A program made the translations under genes and the position numbers. The notes under the pieces are model-generated. The model ran no database searches. It worked only from the letters and a program-made list of their open reading frames with translations, and was not told where the DNA came from. From NCBI RefSeq assembly GCF_000003815.2, contig NC_049991.1, positions 11,752,917 through 11,816,916 on the forward strand: a stretch of DNA of 64,000 bases, in the 5' to 3' direction. The DNA is from Branchiostoma floridae. Its lineage: Eukaryota > Chordata > Leptocardii > Amphioxiformes > Branchiostomatidae. Positions within the stretch are counted from its first letter, which is position 1, and each line of letters begins with the position of its first letter. Of this stretch, positions 15,701 to 64,000 are shown piece by piece.

Positions 15701-18700
15701 TCCCACTCAGACAATACAGGCACATACCTCTGGGTGGAATTGCTGCTCTGTCCTAGTGTGACAATACTGACAGTTGTCCCCATTCTCACACAGAGATGGA
15801 TCCCCCCACTCATCACCATGCTTCACATTAGGACAGGGTGTGGACCTGCCAGCAAAAAAAACAAGAACAACATCAACAGGGCTCGAAATACTGGGTGCAT
15901 GTGCACCCAGGTGCACCCAAAATTGGAGCTGTGCACCCAATTATTTTCTGTGGGTGCACAGGGTCACTTGTATACATCATACTCTTGACATCTAAGTGTT
16001 AGAAAGATAATAAGAATGTTTGTCATGGTACTTGTTTAAGAATTTGGTAGTATGTAACTAGGTTTTGTTATTAGGTATTTCTGACATTCTACTTAAATTT
16101 AAGTGGTGCACCCAAAAGTTTTTTGGTGCACCCAATTTTTCAAGCTGGGTGCACCAGTGCACCTAATCCCAAAAACGAATTTCGAGACCTGATAAACATC
16201 AACATCAACAACAAATCAATTACCTGAAATGAAAATGATGAAAAGATTGAGGGTACATGTACTTGAGTCTCCTTTAGGCCATATTGATCTGATTATGTGG
16301 ACAACATCCATGTACATCAATTTGTGGCCGTATCAACATGAAAGGTTTTTGACCATACAAAGTAGCTGCAAAATGAGCAAATACATGCCATAAATTGCAA
16401 CAAAAAAATCTAAAAATAACTACTAATGTCGTAGAATGCCAAACTCAGTCCCAAAGTAAAAAAGAGGTGAAAGAATAAAATGAAGGATCTATTGTTTGGC
16501 ATACCATATTCTGTGTGTTCAGTCGTATGTTCAACCTTCCTGACCACTTAGATCTCATATTATATTATAATGGAGGCAATTTTTTTTACCAAATTTTTTT
16601 TTAATCGCCACTCGCACCAGATTTCGGGCTCCCAGAGGATGTCATTCATATAATCAAATGAACATGGCCTTAGACAAAACAAGGTATCTTTCTACAATTG
16701 AATGTCATTGGTTACAAATGTTGTACTGAGCTTGCTGAAGTATAGAAGGTTCAGATGCACTGTTCTCGGTGGATCTTACCTATACTTAAACTTGCGAGGA
16801 CTTCTCCTGCGATCTCTGGAATTGTGGTACTGTGGGCAGGCATACCCCTGTCGACAGAGCCTGGGCGGTCGTTTGCATGATTCTGTCTTGTAATTTGCTA
16901 AAACAAAGTTGGTATCTGGCAAAAAGATTGGTTTAGAATCAGTAAACATATCATGGCAATAATCAAAATACTAGTTTTACTGTTATAGAATAAGTTTAGA
17001 CATTGCTACCAAACAATTTTGCTTTCGCTTCTTTGTAGTCAAACCTTGCTACTTGCCAGGGAACTGCAGGTTTAGTACATCAAGGACAAGGGTGCTAATA
17101 AACTTGAGTCTTGACAAGACTTGTTACTTGTCTTGTTCATATCATCTATGAGTTGAAAAGTTAAAGGTCACAATGAATTCAAAGGTTGGCTTTTATTTTT
17201 CCTTGTCAGGATGACTGAAGAGTGAAGACATATATTTTCTAGCTTTCCAGAAACCTGATAGCCTGGTATCCAGTCGTATTGTAGCTCCCGAGTCTCTTCT
17301 ATCCTCTCCACAACAGAAGAGACTTGGGAGCTATAATACTGCTGGATACCAGGCTAGAAACCTTACACAGGGTTCAAAATTACAACAACAACAAAAAGTA
17401 TCCGAAAATGTTTGTACGTTGTACTCACCATTCCACTTTGGGTCTTCATTAACTATCATATTCTTTTCTTGTTTCTCCGGCAGGGAGAGCCCATTCGTGT
17501 CGGAGGGATTATTCCCCGGTGTCTGCTGCTGAGCCTGCAGCTCGCGGATATCGTAGACCGCAGGCCGGAGGTCGTGCGGGCCGTGTGCAAAAGCACAGTG
17601 GGGCCCGTTTTTCACACAGTAGCCTCTACTATCTGTCTCATGTACGCAGGTACTGGTTTTGTAGTAGCGTAGGTGATATCTTCGTTCTGTGTCCCCGGCA
17701 GTACGGTGTAAATAGGGGCAACTGCAAATGGATTACAAGATAAAGGTCAGAAACACGATACAACTTTCACTCCCAACAGCGTGGAAACAAAATACCACCT
17801 TTGGAACAAGGATAACCATGGGTTATAGATCAGGTAAGATATTGTATAAAAGGGGGATCTTTCTCAAAGAAGCCACATAAATATAATCTCAGGGTGTGAC
17901 TGGCATGGCACATAGATTATTAGATATATCATACACATGATAACAACGAAAGTACAACTAAATCAAATAACTAGTGGCCCTTCCACTAATAAGGTGATAA
18001 GGTGCAATAAACCCTCAACAGATTGTGTAACAGAGACAACATGGAGACATAGTACATGGGGTTACGGGTAGCCTGACAAAATCATGCTACTAGTAGCCAA
18101 CCCAACAGTTACAAGGATATATCATAAGAGTGGACACTACAATAGCCTGATTAAATCTCGCTTATAGCAGCCCGCCCAACATCCGCCGCCCCCCCTGCGG
18201 GGAGGGCCAGTTACAGCCCTGGACAGCAATGTTTGTGTTACACAGACTAGACACTACAAGAGGTGCATACATTTGAACAAAGCTTTGCTACATGTATATA
18301 TTCTTTCAATTACACAAAGTATGGCCAACAAAAAAGCTTCCTACATGTCTAGCTAGACTTGTGTAGCTATAGCAAACATGTATGCCATCCCTATAAACCA
18401 TTCCTTCCACAGTTGAATGCAAACATGAATCAACTGTTTCAGACATTTCAATTAATGCCATATTTCAATCACAGGCATAATTTGTGCAGATTCACGAAAA
18501 CTTATCAAAGTGTACCGAACAACCTGCTGGTTATAATAATGACATTTGCCAAAAAATGGCTCTGTACACATTCATCACTGATTAATCTAATAAATTAATG
18601 TATTGCTATGAACATTACTTGATTTATCTAGCAGTTGAACCAGCCATTACTATCCAGAGGAAGGCCACATTAAAAACCTTTAATTAATACCCACCGATTT

Positions 18701-41320: not shown

Positions 41321-42279
41321 ATGGCTGGAAGGTTACTGACTTCACAACTATATATCATCACAGAGAACAGTGGTATTAATACATTACTTCGGAGGTAAGT
41401 TACTAGTATTTGAAACAGTATTTTGTTCATACCCTCCCATGCGATGTCCTTCCGGGGATTCTGTCCTTGCCATGCGGTGATGTAACTTAAGTTATAACGT
41501 TACATGTAGGTATATATCATCACCATTGGCTATTTCTAAAGCAGTCACGCTCATAAAGTGTTACTTTGATATGACAGAATCTCACTTTTGACACTATTGT
41601 CAGGATCATTATGTTAATTACGATTATTGACAGGATTATTTTATTGATTTTCTCACAATTTAACCATTAACAATATTGATGCTGTTATCTAAGTGTCAAA
41701 AGATCATGGCCCAATATTTTTTCTATATTGCTATCAGGTAAATTCAGGTCTCCAATTTATACCAATTCATGGACATCTAGTAAGTTTGAAATGATTCCAA
41801 GAAGTTAACATTTAAGGAGTATAGATTACAATTTGAAAATCAATTCTTCATCTGAAATAATGAACATTCTTTCTTTTTTCAGGCTCCTGCGCACGAAGCT
41901 GCTACCACAGTACCAGACCCTCTCCACTGCTGCAGCAAGACATGCCAGGAAAACAGAGGACCCCCCAGGGGAGGAGGATACAGGACCCCTGAAGTTCACC
42001 ACCAGTAAGGGTGCTCAGTGGAAGGTGGCGCAAACTATGAACCTGAACAAAAACCGTCCAATCAGAAAAATCATCCCTTTTTCCCTTACCTTCACAGCTA
42101 TCCTGCTGTACTTCTGTGTATTCCGCAAGGAGTCGTGGTTGGATGAGGAACTGGACAAAAACTTGTATGCCAGGATGCCAGGGTTATTACCGCCAACAGA
42201 TGAAAATGAGGGTACTGACAGTGTTGCTGTTTCAGGACAAGATGTTGCTACAACTACTAATGTTACACCTTCTACATAG
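41321..42279 (+). CDS. UQCC4: Small single-pass mitochondrial protein resembling complex III assembly factor UQCC4 (C16orf91/CCSMST1)
   Basis: Two exons, 41321-41394 and 41883-42279, give 156 codons with GT/AG borders and phase 2 continuity; the acceptor follows a strong pyrimidine tract. The N-terminus is basic and low in acidic residues (MAGRLLTSQLYIITENSG), compatible with a mitochondrial presequence. The core PLKFTTSKGAQWKVAQTMN resembles the PIEFSSSKA..W.V..TM core I recall for human UQCC4. One hydrophobic segment follows, around IIPFSLTFTAILLYFCVF, then an acidic motif RKESWLDEELD. The C-terminus after that is Thr/Ser-rich and probably unconserved. Known family role: assembly of respiratory complex III in the inner membrane. 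It starts about 400 bp from TOP3A in the opposite direction and is tail to tail with the H3.3 gene. The match is by eye, so identity is likely but less secure than for the larger genes. Confidence 0.78.
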
Positions 42280-44411: not shown

Positions 44412-45150
<739 letters not shown>

Positions 45151-50000: not shown

Positions 50001-53000
50001 GCAGTATTCTACTCATATTGGGAAGCCTTTCTATACTAAACATTGTAAATTCAGAACATCTGCACAGTTTGTATTAGCCAAACAATAAATTGATAACATT
50101 ACCTCTTGTGCTGTGTCGTGCCTCGCCAGACCCAGCCAGTGCCCAACCCAATCAGCTACTACCTGCACCAGACACCAGAGAACATGCACAAGTTTGAGAC
50201 TCTGTCCAACCACTTTGTGGAGTTGGTGGCACCTTGGTTCATCTTCCTAACTCGTCCCTTCCGTTTCACCTGTGGGTTTCTCCAGATTCTGTTCCAGGTA
50301 CATAGACTCTGACCACAGTTTTCTGTTTTGTGCATTTGTTGTTTGATGATTTGAAGCAATGACAAAAAAGTGTCCTTTACCCTGCTGACATTCCTTGGCC
50401 ATACTGTGGCAGCTTTATTTTTTTGTTTATTATCTAGCTGGTTGCATGTTACATCAATTAAGGTTGGATATCCAAGAAATAAGATAAGAAAGCACAACAT
50501 AAGACTTACTCAAGCAACTGGACAGATTTTGAAAATGGTTAGACATTTCAGGTAACATGCATTGGCATAATACCGGTAGTAAGACTTATACCGGTAGATT
50601 AAAAATACTGGAACTTAAAGAGATCTACACATGCAACAATAGTTATTTCTGAGCTGTGCACACTTCAGACATCTAGGTGTCCAATACACCATTTACAAAG
50701 CATCAATAACAATGCATTCGAAGACAAAGTTTTCAGTATACTTTTTTTTAAATTTCGGGGTAGGCAGCTCGTCGTGGGACGAACACACTGTCACATTCAT
50801 TGCCAAATTTATATAGATCACAATTACACATGCTCACGGCACAAGACGAACATGATTCAACAACAATCTTGAATTTCTGTTGGTGACCTACAACTCATGT
50901 AAAAGTGTGAAGAACCGTTGCATAATAGCCCGGATCTACGACTGAATGGGCAAAATTGAACGTACGCAGCCATTTTCCCGCCATTTTTATATCTACGCTA
51001 GCAGTGAAGTGTTAGGTCATAGCGGTTGTGACGGACAGAAGTTAAATGAAAATTCTTGACAGTATACGTCCGTTTTCTCATGACATATTGTATGCTCATG
51101 CAGGTTTATGTTTTATGCATTTACTGACAGAAAAGGAAGGAACATCAGAGGATGTATAAATGTACATAGCGGCAGCTAATTGTGCCGTGTTTCTTCCTAC
51201 CGGTATTTTGTACCCCCTCCCAACCAAGTGCCCGTTCGCCGTGTAATTCCGCAGCGTGTTACAATTACAATATTACGCTTTTAGCAGGACAAGAGTGGCA
51301 GAAAAGTTACACAGAAGAAGTGGCAAGGGTAACCTATAACAGCAACATGTAACTGGAGAAAATGATGCGTTGACAATTTGTCAAATCAGTATGGCTAGAG
51401 AAATCGTCGTAAACGTACCGGTATTATGATAATAGATGTTACATTGTGGCTTCCACTCTCTTTCATCGATCACTGGCAAAAGGTACTGCATGCTACTTGA
51501 AACATCTGACCATTTCCAATATCTGACCAGTTTCTTGAGTAAGTGTTACCTTGTGTAAGTATATGTTTTTTTATTGTTTTTTATTATCTGTGTTATTGAC
51601 CTCTGTTATTCTTTATTCCCAGGTTATCCTGATCATCAGTGGGAACCTGAGTTTCCTGAACTGGCTGACCATCCTGCCCAGTATCTGTAGTTTTGATGAT
51701 GCCCACCTGGCCTGCCTGTTCCCCAGCTGGAGAGGGGGCACCAAGTGGCAGGTGGCACAGATCCAACAGGAGGAGAGGAGTGGGAGGGCACCTCCTCCTT
51801 CATGGGGTGAGAGGACAGTGTTTACGTGTTTCTTGTGTATTAACTGTTTGCTTTTTTTAATTTACGATTGAAACATACCATAGGTTGTATGCAATGGACA
51901 GAACGTTGACCAAACATCCAGCAGAAACAGTGATGAATTCCACTCCTACTACAAGACAACAACACCTGTACATGCCTGATAACACATTGCCATGCTAGTC
52001 AAGGGTTAAAAGGTTATTGTTGATGATTGACTAAGCCACTGATCATTGGTAAATATTAACAATTTGCCAGTCAACATGACCACCCAGAGCTCATTCAGGG
52101 ATGGTATCAGTTTAAAGTATATTGAAGTTAACAATTTGGGATTACAAGTTCTACACCATTTCTTTCAATATGTCGGATTTGACCTTCACTTCTATTCCCA
52201 GGACAGCTGGTCCGCCGTGTGGTGCACGTATCCCTGGCAGGCCTCATCATTTACCTGAGCCTTCCCGTGGTACAAAACCTGCTGTCCCGACGACAAGCCA
52301 TGAACACTTCATTTGACCCCCTCCGATTGGTCAACACATATGGTGCCTTCGGAAGGTAGGTGGTGGCTTCTAAGAATAGACAGAATCATATAGATGACTT
52401 GAAGTTGCAGCTCTTTTTGATTGCTTTGTCCCAATATCTTTTAAAACCTCATTTCTTAAACTCCCTAAGACTATATGTTAAAAACTATGTTCCATGTTAT
52501 GTGTCTTTGCTTACATTTCCAGTGTCACTAAGGAGAGGACCGAGGTGATATTTCAAGGGACCTATGCAATGAACCCAACAGACCCCAGTGCAGTATGGGA
52601 AGAGTATGAGTTTAAGTGCAAGCCAGGAAACGTGACGCGAAGACCGTGCCTGATCTCACCCTACCACTACAGGCTGGACTGGCTCATGTGGTTTGCCGCT
52701 TTTCAGGTTGGACACTTTTTCAGTCGGACAACTGTTGAAGGTTTTGAAAGAAGCACAAGAGGAGTAAAGCAATTTGTTTGGATAAGATCTAAGTTGGGAA
52801 GACTACTGGTATTAGTTGCAGCTGATCAAGGCATATTCTGTCCAGGCAAGGGGTGCAAAAATTGCTCAGATGGTGATAGAAGCTTAAGCATAAAACTAGG
52901 CACAACTGTGTCATATCAGAAACAATTTAACAGATTTTCTGGTCCTGACAAACTGTCCTTTAGATACCAGTACCTGTTTCCAGTCTGAGTCGGCAGTCTG

Positions 53001-54049
53001 TCATTGCTCGTTCATTCTCGCCATTATCAGTTCCCGCCGCAGTCCATTCCTGTGCAATCTGTTCCAACCGCAATCCTGTCGCAATACATCCCTGCCACAA
53101 TCTGTCCCTGCCGCAGTTGGTCCCTGTTTCAATCCATCCCACTGCTATCTGCTTTCACAGTAAATTTGATATGTTATAAGTAATATTCATATGTCATAGA
53201 TGCCATTTTGCTTTAGAAGATACAGCAGGTAAATTTTGGGGGTGTACCCACTGCTTTATAGTATGATCACCAAAGGGTTTAGGGTAAGTTTATAACAGTT
53301 AACCATCAAGGAAGTCATGTCTTTGCACAAAGTTGACCGGATTTTTTTTTTTACCATTTTTCCATACAGAATTACAACTATAACAACTGGCTGGTTCACC
53401 TGGCAGCCAAGCTCCTGGTTAACGACCCTGGTGCAGAGTCATTGATAGCACACAACCCATTCCATGGGAAGCAGCCTCCAAGGTTGGTGTTGATTCAACT
53501 ATGTTTTGTTCAGGTTTTATCCCACAAGAAGTATGTAATTATGCAGGCTTATCTGTTTGTGTAATACTGTGTTGCTTACCACAGAAGTTAGCAGTTAAAA
53601 TTCCATATACATCTTGTTGTGGATTCATGTTTTATGAGTTATGTAAACAAGTTTTGGACATCACTTTTATGTCATTGACAAGAGAAGAAGGTTTTGAAAA
53701 TTCTGAAAAAGTTCCAGTCCAATAATGCCAAAGGAAAATATTGATCTACCAACCTAATGAAATTAATTTTGGATGTATTTAGATTGTTGCTGTATATGTG
53801 TATACAAGTATACATGTATGTGTATGTATAGTCAGGATTACCCTTTTGACCAGTCTCACCCCACTTTCCAGTTTTATCCGAGCTGAACACTACAAGTATA
53901 CCTACACGAAGATCGGCAGTGCCGCAGCAAAGGAGGGGAAATGGTGGAAGCGGCGGAGAATCGGAGAGTACCTCCCCGCCGTCTCACTGGGCTCACTGAA
54001 CCAGTACATCAAGCAGCATGGCTGGAACATGCCTGCGATCAAACAGTGA
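47095..54049 (+). CDS. LMF1: Lipase maturation factor 1, multi-pass ER membrane protein
   Basis: Twelve exons give 583 codons (human LMF1 has 567): 47095-47326, 47732-47924, 48489-48608, 49089-49099, 49347-49495, 49805-49870, 50130-50297, 51623-51806, 52202-52355, 52523-52706, 53370-53482, 53872-54049. The N-terminus is hydrophilic and Thr/Ser/Glu-rich. The family signature runs through TYWLTRIVFLRSLGLIYF, VAFLVALHQNKQLLG, WYSFGWESQLLETGFLA, GLIKIRGDQCWRDLTCMNYH, TLSNHFVELVAPWFIF, GNLSFLNWLTILPSI and EEYEFKCKPGN, ending basic (KEGKWWKRRRIGEYLP). Known role: folding and dimer assembly of lipoprotein lipase, hepatic lipase and endothelial lipase in the ER. Exon 4 is a microexon of 11 nt whose removal would break the frame. 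Sequence between exons matches LMF1 rather than LMF2 where I can recall both, but a single pre-duplication orthologue is possible. A transposon-like element sits in intron 7 and a related one just downstream. Confidence 0.93.
50553..51441. mobile_element. 889-bp terminal-inverted-repeat element in LMF1 intron 7 (copy A)
   Basis: Starts TAACATGCATTGGCATAATA followed by CCGGT, and ends with a diverged inverse of that. Most of it is the reverse complement of 54345-54997. It has about 235 bp in the middle (50910-51143) that the other copy lacks. No coding frame seen. Confidence 0.8.
53020..53150. repeat. Imperfect 18-20 bp tandem repeat in LMF1 intron 10
   Basis: Units of the type TCCCTGCCGCAATCTG recur about six times with changes. 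Long frames through it are a by-product of the repeat. Confidence 0.7.
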
Positions 54050-57012: not shown

Positions 57013-57440
57013 TAGGGCTGGGTACCGGTACAGAAAATTCAGGTCCGGTTCAGGTCCAGAGGATCAGGTCCAGGTCCGGACCTGAACCTGGACCTGATGC
57101 AGTATGACTCATACCAATCGTCCATTTCACTACAAAGAGATCTATTTGGTGGAGTATAAGACTTACACTAGCGTTTTAAAATCCTTCAACGCTTACTGCA
57201 CCTGTACGATTGGCTGTAAAACGTGGTAGAAATTTACTATAAACTCTATTCTACTTCACTCTTGTTATTTTCTTCCACCTGCAAGCGCCAAAACGTGTGA
57301 ATGCCTGATAAAATAATCTGTTAATTTTCTAATCGGTCCAACATCCGGTCCACCTAATTTTTTCAGGTCCGGTTTTTCTGGACCGGTCCAATAAGAAAAA
57401 CCGGTTTTGTACCGGTACACTGTACCGATACCCAGCCCTA
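57013..57440. mobile_element. Intact hAT-like MITE, TAGGGCTGGG ends, perfect 8-bp duplication
   Basis: Ends TAGGGCTGGGTACCGGTACA and TGTACCGATACCCAGCCCTA are inverted repeats with one mismatch. CTGTCAAC is duplicated exactly at 57005-57012 and 57441-57448. It is 428 bp, has no coding frame, and is the best-preserved of four copies in this window. Confidence 0.88.
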
Positions 57441-58199: not shown

Positions 58200-58451
58200 A
58201 TGGACGTCGTCTCTAATACACTGAAGGTGAGCCTCCTACGTTTTTATCCTTGATGAATGTTGTCACTCATATTTTAGAATAGGATATCATGTAACGTAAC
58301 AATGTATTTGGGGGAGGGTAAGCAACAAGAAAGGTAAGTATCAACACTCGATCTTTGGATATCGGGACTTGCTTTTGTGTCAGGTGGACTTATGGTGTCA
58401 CTGAATCCCTGGGCATTTTTTTTGTATTTGCAGATCTTCACCGTTGAGTAA
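58200..58451 (+). promoter_or_regulatory. Candidate spliced 5' leader and 14-codon upstream ORF of the RdRP gene
   Basis: A 5' exon can end at 58226 (AAG then GTGAGC) and splice to 58434 (after TTTGTATTTGCAG). An ATG at 58200 would read MDVVSNTLK across the junction and stop with TAA at 58449-58451, 11 nt before the main ATG. If this exon is used, the message carries a short uORF that could dampen translation. Splice sites are clear; use of the leader is inference. Confidence 0.5.
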
Positions 58452-58462
58452 AAGCGATCAAA

Positions 58463-61400
58463 ATGAAGCGAGGTGGTCATTATAAACCCCACTGCACCGT
58501 GACAGTCCAGGTCAGCATACAGAGTAGGGACCCGGCGGCCGCGCACTACCGCCTGGAGTCGTACCTGCTGCGGTATGCGGACATCAGCAGGGACCCGCCG
58601 CCTAGAGTCGTCAGCACGCCCGCTGCAGCTCAGTACGAGGACGCGGTGGTCAACCTGGAGTTCACCTTAGAGCCGAGGCACGGGACAACCCCGAAACTGT
58701 TTTTTGCTGACCTGAGGCGGCGATGGTGCGCGGACCCCCCGAACTGGGAAGGAGACAGCCGGCCTTGGCTCACAACAAATCAACGGAACACCTGGTCTGG
58801 GTCTGAGACAGGCATGAGGGCCATACCATTACATGACCTGGAGTGCGCCGGCTTCTCGCTAGGTGCGTTTGTCGGAAGGAGCACGTTCGTCGGCCACTAC
58901 GACACAGACGACTTGGTCCTGGACAAGACGGTGTCGTTCGAACACGACCGCAGGTTGATGACCGTGACCTTCCAGCCTTACGTCGACCTGCCGACCTGTA
59001 GGTTTGAGGTCGGCTACAAGGAACTGGAGAAAACCGTTCTGGTCCACCAAGATGGTGACGTCACCTGCCTGTTCTTCTTTCTCAAATACCCGCTGAAGGT
59101 GGGTGGAAAACACCACATACCTCCAAGAATAAGTTCCAACAGGGCGTAGCCTACATATAGATGACGCAAGTTCTAAAAGTTTCGGAAAACCCCTCTGGTA
59201 ATCTTTCATACTGTGACTTAGTACAGCCTATCCCCTTGTTTATCCTGCACAATATGTTGGATGATCCTATAGCTAAGCCGCTTATACTTGTCTATTTCGG
59301 TATGTAAGTGAATGTATTTTCACTTAAAAAGGTGTGCGAAGTAGAATATGAACTAGACTTTTTACTGACAATTTTACTGTGAAGTGCTGCCTTTTCCCTT
59401 ATTTATCCTGCACAATATATTGAATGGCGTCCTAAGCCGTTTTTAGTTTTTCTTTAGTCCTGTACGAAGTAGAGCTAGGAGGAACCAGATACAGCAGAAA
59501 GACAGCACTGCAGAAAGGACATGACAAAGATAAGCTTCAGTGCCATGTACTAGAATATAGGATTGATTCTAAGCCCGGCAATCTTAGGTTCTTGTTTCTG
59601 CAAGTAAGGCTGTTTATTATTGCATTTTCTCGTTTCTAAGGTATATGAAGTGGAAGAAGTGCTCGTGATTTTCCCCAGACTCAGTGACAGCCCTGAAGAA
59701 AAGGTGACCCGAAAGATCAGCTTTCACGGCTGCTCAAAGAGTACATTGGGAAACTCCTCCTGCCTGAAGCTCGTTCTCCCCGCCCGACAGAACCCCCAGG
59801 ACGTCCTGAGCCGACTGTGTGGGAGGGGCAGCTTTACCGCGCACTACGTCTCCGTCACGTCACTCCCCGCACCTGAGACGGCAGGTAAGGAGGCGGACAT
59901 GCTGACCGGCGTGGCGTTCAAGACCAGCTACGCCTTCCGCGCCCTCCTCTCGCGCGGCTTCACCGCCATGGACCAGGTGACGGACGCCTTCATCCGCCAG
60001 GTGAGACGTCTGGACAGGGACCGAGGGGAGGATGTGGCCGCCGATATTCTGTACCGTCTGACTCACGTGCTGGAGAGAGACAGGTAGGCTTTCATGGTTC
60101 GCTCTGACGTTCATTATACACTATATACAGTCGCTTCTCTGTGGATGGCAGAAGCGAACTACTACCCGGATGGTACCCAGGCTAGCTAGTGTTTAGTTTT
60201 ACTTGAAGAACGTCGACAGTTCATTCGCACCCCTAAGGACTTTGTCGCGTCCAAAGACCCTTTGTGTTTGAGCAAAAGTTCCCTATCATGTCGCTTACCG
60301 AAGCAGATTTTTTTTTTCAAGTCATGAGTTAGAACCTTTTACCGTTAGGTTTGCCAACATCCAAGCGGTGCTTGACTGCCTCCTGGCCGCCCGAGATGTT
60401 GAGTTGGGCCGACCGGAGACACTCCCGGCTACTCTGCAGGTGGTGGCCAGGGTCATCGTCACGCCGACAAGACTCGTCTTTCTGCAGCCGGAAATCATGT
60501 ACGGAAACAGGTGGGGACAGTGCAAGTCTGCGTCTAAAACACTTTTAGAGTTCCGTGTGCTTGCAGTAGGGTTACCCCTATATGAAGAAGCAGGAATCTG
60601 TAAAGGGAGTAGAGCATGTGTAGCATTGAAGTTTTGTATCATAGTATTTAAGTCTACAGGTACCATTGCTCGACCATGGCACCGCACTAACTGGGTGTTA
60701 TTTGCGACTGTCGCAGAGTTTTGCGGGAATTCGGCACAGATCACTTCCTCCGCGTGGTGTTCCGAGACGAGGACTTCTCCAAACTTCAAGCAACTGGGAC
60801 CGGTAGGGGCAATGGTGATGAGGAGGAGAAGATCTTTGTTCGCGTCAGGAAGGTGTTGAAAAAAGGGATCAAAGTCGGCAACAGGTGGGTTTGACGTATG
60901 GTATATTGGAATTTGATTTACTGTTCTGGTTATACCGTTCTTGTTTCCGCTCTCTTCCGTGCTTTAATACTTGTACTAGTTATAGTCTGACAGTCTGACA
61001 AGATTTGTTTCAATTGGAACTACATGTGTGACGAAATTTTACAACTTGAGCCAAAGATTTAATCAATTGTACATCCCATGATTTAGATTGGTAACAGGGT
61101 CTTTCCTTGGTGCTGAAATGGTGGTCGGCACAACAGTCCCTGTTGCTCTGTTTATTCAAACTGCTTTTTCTTAATCAAGATGTGATGCAGACCCTAAATG
61201 CACTAGGATTTACCCTTTCATTTTGTATAAATGTGTGAATTGTACAAATTAAGTATCTTTGACAAATGACAGGCCACATGATCAATGGGACATGCGGTGG
61301 TCAGACCGTTTGAATTTTTACATCATGACCGGGGCCTCATATTTCCGCCTTGACGCTGTACTTGTAGGTTGTACGAGTTCCTGGCGGCGTCTAACAGCCA

Positions 61401-64000
61401 GCTGCGGGAGCACGGCCTGTGGTTCTTTGCGTCTGACGGCAGGAACAGAGCGGACTCCATCCGGGATTGGATGGGAGACTTCAGCAACAGCAGGTCGGGC
61501 TTGTAATCATTCTCTTATCGCCAGTGTTTAACTGTAGAATTAAAGTTATAGAAGAAGCAGCCATAAATTTTAGGAACAGGTCGATTCCATAGCCTCCATA
61601 GGAGGCTCTCTGGACCGGACCGGCAGTACAAACGACCGAATTCAAAACGAAATGGCCAGCAAAAGTGTATGATGAGAATAAAAAAGACGAAAAGGGCACA
61701 GAGAGCCTGCTATGGAGGCTATCGATTCCAGTCGTTCGTCAGAATCAGCAGTTAAGCCAGGAGGAGAGTTCCACCTCGCCATTTTGTTGGCCGAATTCCG
61801 TATGTTTTGAAGAAACTGACTTTCTCATGATAAGCACATTTATTCAAGTACAGCGTGTTGTTAAGTCTTGAGAGTATACACTGGTTGACATCCACATTAG
61901 AAAGTCTTGGAATAGCTGTAAGATTATTGACACCCTCTGACTTGCCGCAGGTGCCCGGCCACCTACCTGGCCAGGATGGGTCAGTGTTTCTCCACCACGG
62001 AGTCCAGCGTCACAGTCCGGCCGGGACAGGTCAGCAGGATCGCCGACATCGAGGGCGGGCGGGACCCTGACGGCAAGTCCTACTGCTTCTCCGACGGCAT
62101 CGGCAAGATTTCACGGGACCTTGCTAAGGAGGTGTGTAATTCTAGTGTTAGCCCTGTATATGTAGCTAGCTGTATCTATCGGTCCTAGCTCCGTTCGCTC
62201 CTTGGATCGCTTCCCTGCCATCACTAGATTGACTGGAGCTACTTGATGGATTCCAGGCTGAGGAACACGGGATTACTTCAGCAACAACTTGTATCCTTTA
62301 ACAATGTTTAAGATGATGTTCGTGTCTTAGCGTCGACGTAATCTGCATACTTATACTGTGGTATTATCTATTATCTAAATAGCACGTAGAGCTCTAGACA
62401 ATGTACGACTATTTCTTAAACGTTTCTTTCCTCCTTTCCCAATGCAAAGGTGTGCGAGAAGACCCAGCGAAGCCATGAGCCCTCAGCCTTCCAGGTGAGG
62501 TACGCGGGAGTGAAGGGGATGCTGGCGGTAGACCCCACCCTCACCGGTCTGGCCATGCAGTACCGCAAGAGCATGGAGAAATTTTCCTCTGAGCACAACA
62601 ATATTGAGATTTGCTCCGAAAGTCATCCAGGTGCGCTTCCTTCATTTTACGTGATATAGTAATTGAATATTTTTTTATATAATTTAGCTTACCTTCACGA
62701 ATCGGAAACTATTGTTTTTGCTCAGTGTCTTCCTCTTTTGCCGTTCCAAAGAAATACAAATGTAAGGTCAATGACCTTGCCTAGACCACTATCACCATGG
62801 TTACATCGCTACGGTGTTCGATTTCATTAAGTAGCAAGTGGTAGGGCAGAGTTGAAGGGGTTGGAGGGACCTAGCCTTATTTATGAATGTATTTGAAAAA
62901 AGAATATAGAAGAATGAATAAACAGCTTGGACAGTAGTTTACTAGGCTAGAGGATGTGAAGGTAAATATCATGTATTTGCTTGCAAATGTTACCTTTCTA
63001 GTTGAGATATTCTTTCAGTCGTGTATTGTCCATGTCAAGGCTACACCGGGTTTAACTATTTTGTTTTCAGCGCGGTTTTACCTGAACCGACAGATCATCT
63101 CCATCCTGTCGGGACTGGGGATTCCAGACGAGGTTTTCCAGGTCCTTCAAGAAGACCAGCTGCGGAAGTTAGCCAGCATGTTCCTGTTGGAGAATCGGGC
63201 CGTCGACGCGCTGAACCAGCGGGCGCAACTGTCCGGAGTGCCGTACCAAAAGCTGTCCAACTGCGGCGTCTACATGACCAGCGAGCCGTTCTTTAAAGGC
63301 ATGCTACGGAGAGTTTACAAGAGCGGCATCGGTAAGAAGGTTCGCCACGTTGTTCTCGCCCAGTCTTTCACCCACGTTTCCTATGTTTTCTATGATATCT
63401 TACGCGCACTGTAGTTACATGTTTGCCCTACCTGTCATACTTGACATTTTATAACCTGTAGATATGGCCAAAATATGCATTTTGACGGCACCTATCTAAA
63501 TTTATTTGACCATGCACAGGGGACACTCGAAGAAAGGCCAGGATAGAGATCCCACCCGAGTACGGACGGAACATGTTGGGTGTCCTGGACGAGACAGGCA
63601 CACTTGAGTATGGACAAGTCTTTGTCCAGTACACGGAGGATATCACAGACAAGGGTGGCGAGACCAAAGTGTTGACAGGAGATGTCGTTGTATCGCGGAA
63701 TCCGTGTTTCCACCCGGGAGACGTACGGAAACTCAGGGCAGTCGACGTCCCCGCACTGCATCACATGGTTGACGTCATCGTCTTCCCCTCCAAAGGACCG
63801 CGACCGCATCCTAACGAAATGTCGGGAGGAGACCTGGATGGAGACCAGTTCTTCGTCACCTGGCACCCTGACCTGCTATTCCAGCGCCCGAATGCAGACC
63901 CCATGCACTTCAAGGCACCGAAAAAGATAGAGCTGGAGATCGTCACAATCTCCGACTTGCAGAATTTTATCGTTGACTATATCAAGAGCGACATTTTGGG
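58463..64000 (+). CDS. Cellular RNA-dependent RNA polymerase (eukaryotic RdRP family), 3' end beyond the window
   Basis: Nine exons run in frame for about 880 codons and continue past the window: 58463-59098, 59641-60083, 60349-60510, 60717-60884, 61368-61493, 61951-62131, 62450-62630, 63071-63331, 63520-64000. All have GT/AG borders and matching phases. RdRP-family blocks appear in order: RLVFLQPEIMYGNRVLREFG (exons 3-4), LYEFLAASNSQLREHGLWFF (exon 5), ATYLARMGQCFSTTESS and YCFSDGIGKIS (exon 6), PSAFQVRYAGVKGMLAVDP (exon 7), and the catalytic acidic motif GGDLDGDQFFV (residues 824-828 at 63831-63845). This is the double-psi-barrel QDE-1/RDR/EGO-1 type, not a viral right-hand polymerase. The first about 300 residues are not recognisable to me. 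Known role in other eukaryotes: copying RNA into dsRNA or short antisense RNAs that feed Dicer/Argonaute silencing. Its job in chordates is unclear. The start follows AAA and an upstream in-frame stop. Confidence 0.95.
61590..61720. mobile_element. 131-bp MITE with 9-bp target duplication in an RdRP intron
   Basis: Ends TAGCCTCCATAGGAGGCTCT and the inverse AGAGCCTGCTATGGAGGCTA match at all but one position. TCGATTCCA is duplicated exactly at 61581-61589 and 61721-61729. A 9-bp duplication is typical of Mutator-like elements. Confidence 0.85.

Follow-up and report, generated by a model that had tools for sequence, protein, structure and literature searches.

The question raised by this locus is whether the genome of the lancelet Branchiostoma floridae holds a resident and working gene for an RNA-dependent RNA polymerase (RdRP), and what such an enzyme would do in a chordate; a cellular RdRP is not known from vertebrates. 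Within the window—the whole stretch of 64,000 nucleotides that was analysed—the positions 58463–64000 of the forward strand contain nine exons, the joining of which gives 879 stop-free codons. The open frame of exon 1 begins at 58448, immediately 3' of an in-frame stop. The exons are as follows:

58463–59098, forward strand: RdRP exon 1, residues 1–212, with the start codon at 58463 and a phase 0 junction
59641–60083, forward strand: RdRP exon 2, GT-AG, in agreeing phase
60349–60510, forward strand: RdRP exon 3, where the PF05183 match starts near 60458
60717–60884, forward strand: RdRP exon 4, joined frame, GT-AG
61368–61493, forward strand: RdRP exon 5, joined frame, GT-AG
61951–62131, forward strand: RdRP exon 6, containing the FSDGIGKIS block
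62450–62630, forward strand: RdRP exon 7, joined frame, GT-AG
63071–63331, forward strand: RdRP exon 8, joined frame, GT-AG
63520–64000, forward strand: RdRP exon 9, truncated at the window end and extending in the assembly to window-equivalent 65411
65595–65792 (window-equivalent), forward strand: RdRP exon 10, outside the window, carrying the stop codon (host assembly)

All eight introns within the window are bounded by GT-AG and, as a control on the model, shifting the exon-4 acceptor by two bases introduced 16 stops. Identical exons were returned by a spliced aligner restricted to GT-AG and supplied with the own protein as template, which is a consistency check and not an independent proof. 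The full gene in the host assembly consists of 10 coding exons encoding 1415 residues and ends at window-equivalent 65792. The original prediction of a nine-exon RdRP gene with an intact DLDGD motif therefore holds for the frame, the domain and the motif, but its nine exons are incomplete, the assembly giving ten.

The domains and motifs recognised in the predicted protein are these:

58925–59856, forward strand: PH_met_RdRP domain (PF25359), residues 155–284, spanning intron 1 (hmmscan)
63831–63845, forward strand: DLDGD catalytic motif, residues 824–828

The search of the joined protein against Pfam, proposed earlier as a check, matched the eukaryotic RdRP family PF05183 at residues 397–879 (E 2.1e-158; 529.1 bits against a cut-off of 23.8), the match reaching profile position 582 of 582 once the rest of exon 9 was added; the gene is thus almost certainly one for a cellular RNA-dependent RNA polymerase. 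The N-terminal 300 residues, previously described as unrecognised, do include a recognisable part, since residues 155–284 match PF25359, with E 1.5e-6 and 28.3 bits on the joined protein, barely above the 27-bit cut-off, and with 16.9 bits, under that cut-off, on exon 1 alone. A search of the PDB with a profile of the N-termini left the first 212 residues unmatched except for 4epc at chance level (E 0.061). The AlphaFold2 model of exon 1 from a single sequence, with a mean pLDDT of 42.6, is too low in confidence to be usable; the strand-helix-strand-strand-helix order over residues 12–100 (block means 49–69) only hints at an RRM-like fold. A DUF7752 region is also present, and both it and the last exon, which is short, have counterparts in the paralogues. 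By eye the last exon appears KH-like; a Pfam search of that exon returned nothing.

Concerning structurally characterised relatives, the best PDB matches were the RDR2 chains 7eu0, 7roz, 7w84 and 7w82 (E 3e-99 to 1e-93), which are Arabidopsis and maize proteins. They align to residues 392–879 and share the DLDGD motif, two RDR2-type sequences being 41% and 39% identical to the window protein over the polymerase domain including the motif, whereas residues 1–391 remained unmatched and the N-terminal profile matched the polymerase part only. QDE-1, a fungal RdRP, belongs to the same family around DLDGD (5fsw, E 8e-26) but is a much weaker match, the better of its two stretches covering residues 736–847. 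RDR2, a member of the RdRP-alpha clade, outscores QDE-1, and the gene is probably of the RdRP-alpha type; the eight-sequence tree had the two RDR2-type chains as its sole outsiders. The outside sequences used here were PDB chains only, the animal RdRP clades being taken from PMC6396948.

The gene is not alone in its genome. At least five further RdRP loci were found in the assembly, and DLDGD is kept at all six loci found; in B. lanceolatum, by contrast, the active site was described as intact in three of six candidates, with a caution about defective gene prediction (PMC6396948). The window gene is one of three RdRP genes grouped on one chromosome, its nearest paralogue being convergent, with a stop-to-stop distance of 1.1 kb, and intron positions and phases—determined with the full C1 model—are common to the window gene and the paralogues. 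PF25359 is above the cut-off in the convergent neighbour (38.5 bits), below it in the C1 paralogue (25.7 bits) and the third C13 gene (19.9 bits), and matched in the C8 paralogue only at E<1. The RdRP locus on C4 probably carries an AAA_12 domain, in likeness to one RdRP gene of B. lanceolatum (PMC6396948).

The gene resides in a 22.4-Mb contig, and the same window carries histone H3.3, LMF1, CCSMST1, UNK-type and topoisomerase genes, so that the two neighbours named earlier, H3.3 and LMF1, are both confirmed. A contaminant, a recent horizontal transfer or a viral capture could be invoked because the family occurs only patchily among animals (PMC6396948), but this is of almost negligible probability in the face of the animal neighbours, the size of the contig, the shared introns and the six loci, as well as of a QDE-1 score far under that of the RDR2-type chains; moreover, viral and prokaryotic contigs, scanned with two peptide patterns each time, gave no confirmed relative at that sensitivity. 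Contamination and viral capture are rejected on the strength of neighbours, introns, paralogues and these scans, and the view of an old resident animal gene is supported by the contig, the neighbours, the paralogues at five other loci and the introns shared with them. That RdRPs occur in amphioxus is, as had been acknowledged, not new: six genes per genome have been reported both in B. lanceolatum (PMC6396948) and in B. belcheri (PMC12373286). The gene is therefore ordinary in kind, a member of a family already known from lancelets; what the present analysis adds are the at least five more loci in this assembly, the convergent neighbour and a tract in exon 9 common to both genes:

63545–63863, forward strand: putative gene-conversion tract, 319 columns, including DLDGD, common to the convergent neighbour

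Over this tract, 296 of the 319 alignment columns (93%) are identical between the window gene and its neighbour; dS is 0.38 over codons 720–840 and saturated elsewhere, the codon limits having been chosen after inspection of the profile. The Fisher test depends on these limits, the shuffle scan does not. The best identity run was reached in none of 5000 shuffles, and the topology of the eight-sequence tree, which includes the two RDR2-type chains, differs over the tract. Because of this identity amid saturated synonymous sites and the change in the tree, we attribute the tract to an ectopic gene conversion that involved the catalytic core of the two neighbouring genes, a reading drawn from sequence comparison; the phrase 'gene conversion' is absent from the main text of PMC6396948. 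A constraint acting at the DNA level, or an assembly error, appears very improbable as its cause. It is true that the tract spans a strongly conserved protein segment and that fourfold sites identical with the third C13 gene are slightly elevated there as well (25/50 and 22/47 inside, 85/265 and 91/247 outside), but the window gene and its neighbour stand far above that level, with 47 of 55 fourfold sites identical inside against 77 of 243 outside, and with 86 of 105 degenerate codons identical against 46/93 and 44/92 in the comparisons with the third gene. As to an assembly error, 23 of the 319 columns differ between the copies, which is too many for a collapsed duplicate. The C1–C8 pair shows a single local run of 37 identical degenerate codons out of 40, reached in 17 of 5000 shuffles; synonymous identity is thus uneven along other pairs, too.

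A protein that is expressed but has lost its polymerase function, or a gene in decay, would agree with the RdRP product not being clearly detected in B. lanceolatum, for which the absence of any active expressed RdRP was raised as a possibility (PMC6396948), and with one of the six B. belcheri RdRPs being dispensable, as it is missing in 50% of individuals (PMC12373286, where a defence role is also suggested). The complete frame of the window gene, the motif at six of six loci and the purifying selection between the C1 and C8 paralogues make such a loss rather improbable. For that pair, dN/dS is about 0.20 overall and 0.12 within the RdRP domain, both models being cut at a selected donor site, with no stop codon, and thus having an incomplete C-terminus; the figure applies to the pair and not to the window gene, the synonymous sites of which are saturated against its paralogues. 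The motif kept at six loci together with the apparent exchange of the core between two of them likewise disfavours simple decay. The predicted enzyme is likely to be catalytically active, and identity, residency and activity taken jointly are just as likely.

As regards the use of the product, the sequencing of small RNAs with 5'-triphosphates, suggested earlier for this gene, already exists, albeit for B. lanceolatum, and lacks a secondary siRNA class: the RdRP genes of that species are transcribed with no siRNA class seen, and secondary siRNAs were not found in 24 small-RNA libraries, 5'-polyphosphate ones included (PMC6396948). An amplification of RNAi as in nematodes, with short antisense secondary siRNAs bearing 5'-triphosphates, would be compatible with the intact polymerase domain, but the missing class and the exon-junction reads, of which antisense ones made up 1.33 ppm and sense ones 94.2 ppm (PMC6396948), render it very unlikely, although both results come from another species. 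Less remote, though still unlikely, is a role like that of the tick RdRP1, a non-nematode animal RdRP with a known knock-down phenotype (PMC10062562), in which repeats and genes transcribed by Pol III would give rise, on either strand, to small RNAs of about 22 nt with 5'-monophosphates; such small RNAs are not known from lancelets. The siRNA searches in B. lanceolatum excluded reads flagged as rRNA, tRNA, snRNA, snoRNA and scaRNA, so that antisense RNAs derived from tRNAs were possibly filtered away; SRP RNA and RNase P, however, are unnamed in that filter, and the genome-matching reads that the filter let through showed no siRNA population (PMC6396948).

The most likely reading is that of a functional RdRP whose product is double-stranded RNA formed independently of siRNA amplification of the nematode type, the step in the pathway being one that we infer. 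This cephalochordate-resident polymerase, one of at least six paralogues, would bind metal ions by the DLDGD aspartates and synthesise RNA on templates of RNA, and both the N-terminal and the C-terminal arm may bring in templates or partners. Its double-stranded product would not enter an abundant pool of nematode-type secondary siRNAs and may, for that reason, serve under certain conditions or apart from the loading of Argonaute. The most plausible use is RNA surveillance or defence, a role that by analogy can be proposed only tentatively. More speculative, and unlikely at present, is the idea that the lancelet array forms a fast-evolving defence family with a shared engine and changeable arms, in which gene conversion would homogenise the core between neighbours while the arms diverge, each copy recruiting a different RNA and making double-stranded RNA for non-Argonaute sensors.

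Since lancelets keep about six RdRPs without a detected siRNA output, they are among chordates a good place to ask what RNA copying may serve besides RNAi; the retention of the motif and the apparent exchange of the core point to the specific genes and segments on which this may be tested.

The RdRP gene starting at 58463 comprises, up to the window end, nine exons (58463-64000) whose phases fit and whose 879 codons contain no stop, all eight introns inside the window being of the GT-AG type. Exon 9, cut by the window end, extends to window-equivalent position 65411, and exon 10 (65595-65792, window-equivalent) closes the frame, giving a full product of 1415 residues. The original prediction of a nine-exon RdRP frame with an intact DLDGD motif is thus borne out, the motif being located at 63831-63845, and the search of the joined window protein against the Pfam RdRP family, proposed as its check, matched PF05183 over residues 397-879 (E 2.1e-158). 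Pfam also recognised PH_met_RdRP (PF25359) at residues 155-284, at E 1.5e-6 and with a score that barely passes the cut-off, and DUF7752 in exon 9 (E 7.8e-10); exon 10 had no Pfam match, its look-alikes being seen, mostly by eye, downstream of the paralogues. The best PDB matches were RDR2-type chains of plant origin (four distinct sequences, E 3.3e-99 to 9.6e-94), whereas QDE-1, the fungal RdRP, matched far more weakly (E 8.1e-26). The gene is real, intact and resident.

With regard to its surroundings, the window has 158 frames that reach 75 residues; ten were run against Pfam, and the features recognised include the following:

17334-17732, minus strand, UNK-type zinc finger
33-40 kb, minus strand, topoisomerase and GRF zinc-finger exons, which we take to be TOP3A
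41809-42276, plus strand, CCSMST1
44773-45150, minus strand, core histone
52482-52985 and 53337-53561, plus strand, LMF1_C exons

When a second exon (44540-44415) is joined to it, the core histone spells the H3.3 sequence given as template; LMF1 and H3.3, the neighbours originally proposed, are confirmed. UNKL, CCSMST1 and LMF1 are all located in human 16p13.3, and the UNK-type, CCSMST1 and LMF1 genes (17334-17732, 41809-42276 and 52482-53561) together suggest a possible old synteny with that region. Upstream of the RdRP gene, a 428-bp stretch (57013-57440) bears 21-nt inverted repeats at both ends (95% complementary), with more small palindromes within, and looks like a small inverted-repeat transposon. 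A candidate 5' untranslated exon was seen by eye in 58200-58451 (donor after 58226, acceptor before 58434); it would carry a 14-codon upstream reading frame that closes with TAA before the start codon.

The assembly (513,431,437 bases in 431 contigs; the window being C13:11752917-11816916 of contig NC_049991.1) yielded by profile search at least 26 PF05183 matches at no fewer than six loci, both counts being lower bounds, while none of the 14 control genomes was matched by PF05183. The loci besides the window gene are:

C13:11819836-11826274, minus strand, neighbour RdRP, convergent to the window gene (PF05183)
C13:11981044-11987930, minus strand, third C13 RdRP (PF05183)
contigs C1, C8 and C4, one further RdRP locus each (PF05183)

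The gene content, together with these six RdRPs, indicates a cephalochordate. The DLDGD motif is kept in all six, and the coding sequences of the window gene and the neighbour end 1,128 bases apart. Of the nine window-gene introns, eight are common in position and phase to the third C13 gene, seven to the neighbour and two to both C1 and C8; GT-AG ends in the paralogue models are not independent evidence, because the spliced aligner takes GT-AG alone.

The window gene and its neighbour share 87-93% amino-acid identity in three segments inside codons 720-840 as opposed to 24-66%, by segment, outside. The same holds for fourfold sites (47/55 identical inside these codons versus 77/243 outside) and for amino-acid-keeping degenerate codons (86/105 versus 199/528); the best 40-codon run, with 37 identical, was matched in none of 5000 shuffles. 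At 63545-63863, 296 of 319 alignment columns are identical, and dS is 0.38 in codons 720-840, being beyond correction elsewhere. For the third C13 gene, the degenerate-codon count in this region is 46/93 and 44/92 identical, which shows no significant excess over the values for that gene outside; tight constraint on this DNA in general is therefore not indicated. Trees built on the RdRP domain, with two RDR2-type stretches added to the six loci, place the window gene beside the third C13 gene once the tract is removed (support 0.94), and beside the neighbour if nothing but the tract is used (0.86). The simplest reading of these sequence comparisons is that the catalytic cores of the two convergent genes have undergone ectopic gene conversion; among the open-access PMC papers listed by the literature searches, no mention of this for lancelet RdRPs was seen.

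Concerning selection, C1 versus C8 gave dN 0.19 and dS 0.955 overall, and dN 0.08 and dS 0.668 over the RdRP domain; the argument holds by family, not for the window gene itself, because its synonymous change is saturated. The C1 and C8 models (1802 and 1781 residues; locus stretches L015 5915-9112, and L018 1-2891 plus the end of L017) carry about 350 extra C-terminal residues compared with the window gene, the C1 extension having an Arg-Gly-rich stretch. These extensions had no Pfam match, and when they were compared by tblastn with some 3 kb of sequence following each C13 gene, only short weak matches appeared. At the C4 locus (L021 289-9264, i.e. G000:C4:19540289-19549264), UPF1-like SF1 helicase exons matching AAA_11 and AAA_12 lie downstream of the RdRP in the same orientation; three of four exon links tested for frame have a phase-compatible GT-AG pair, the fourth having none in the range tried. 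It is likely a single predicted RdRP-helicase fusion gene, whose counterpart would be BL02069, the one B. lanceolatum candidate with an AAA_12 domain in PMC6396948.

That study describes six RdRP candidates for B. lanceolatum, of which three keep their active site intact and two have a complete domain; it reports that the genes are transcribed, and divides animal RdRPs into alpha, beta and gamma groups, favouring vertical descent for alpha and gamma. Its 24 libraries, which sampled 5'-monophosphate RNAs, RNAs with other 5' ends and RNAs with modified 3' ends, are reported to contain no secondary siRNAs, reads from tRNA or from other ncRNAs of high abundance having been put aside (PMC6396948). 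In other articles, B. belcheri has six RdRPs, one absent from 50% of individuals (PMC12373286), B. floridae was among the reference proteomes when RdRPs were counted in rotifers (PMC7943196), and a tick RdRP is required for ~22-nt 5'-monophosphate RNAs from Pol III genes and repeats (PMC10062562). The B. lanceolatum negative leaves a gap, because a tick-like enzyme would contribute part of the put-aside class of reads.

The sequence establishes to which family the window gene belongs, where it lies, how its domains are ordered and that its motif is intact. As a member of the RdRP family, its protein would copy an RNA template into RNA in a metal-dependent reaction, the product, to judge from the other lancelet, probably not accumulating as nematode-type siRNA. 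Our preferred guess, a tentative one that we hold at rather less than even chances, is that the gene acts conditionally in RNA surveillance or defence. An RdRP of this kind is already reported from lancelets; what is added here is the finding that the motif is intact at all six loci, and the putative conversion tract.
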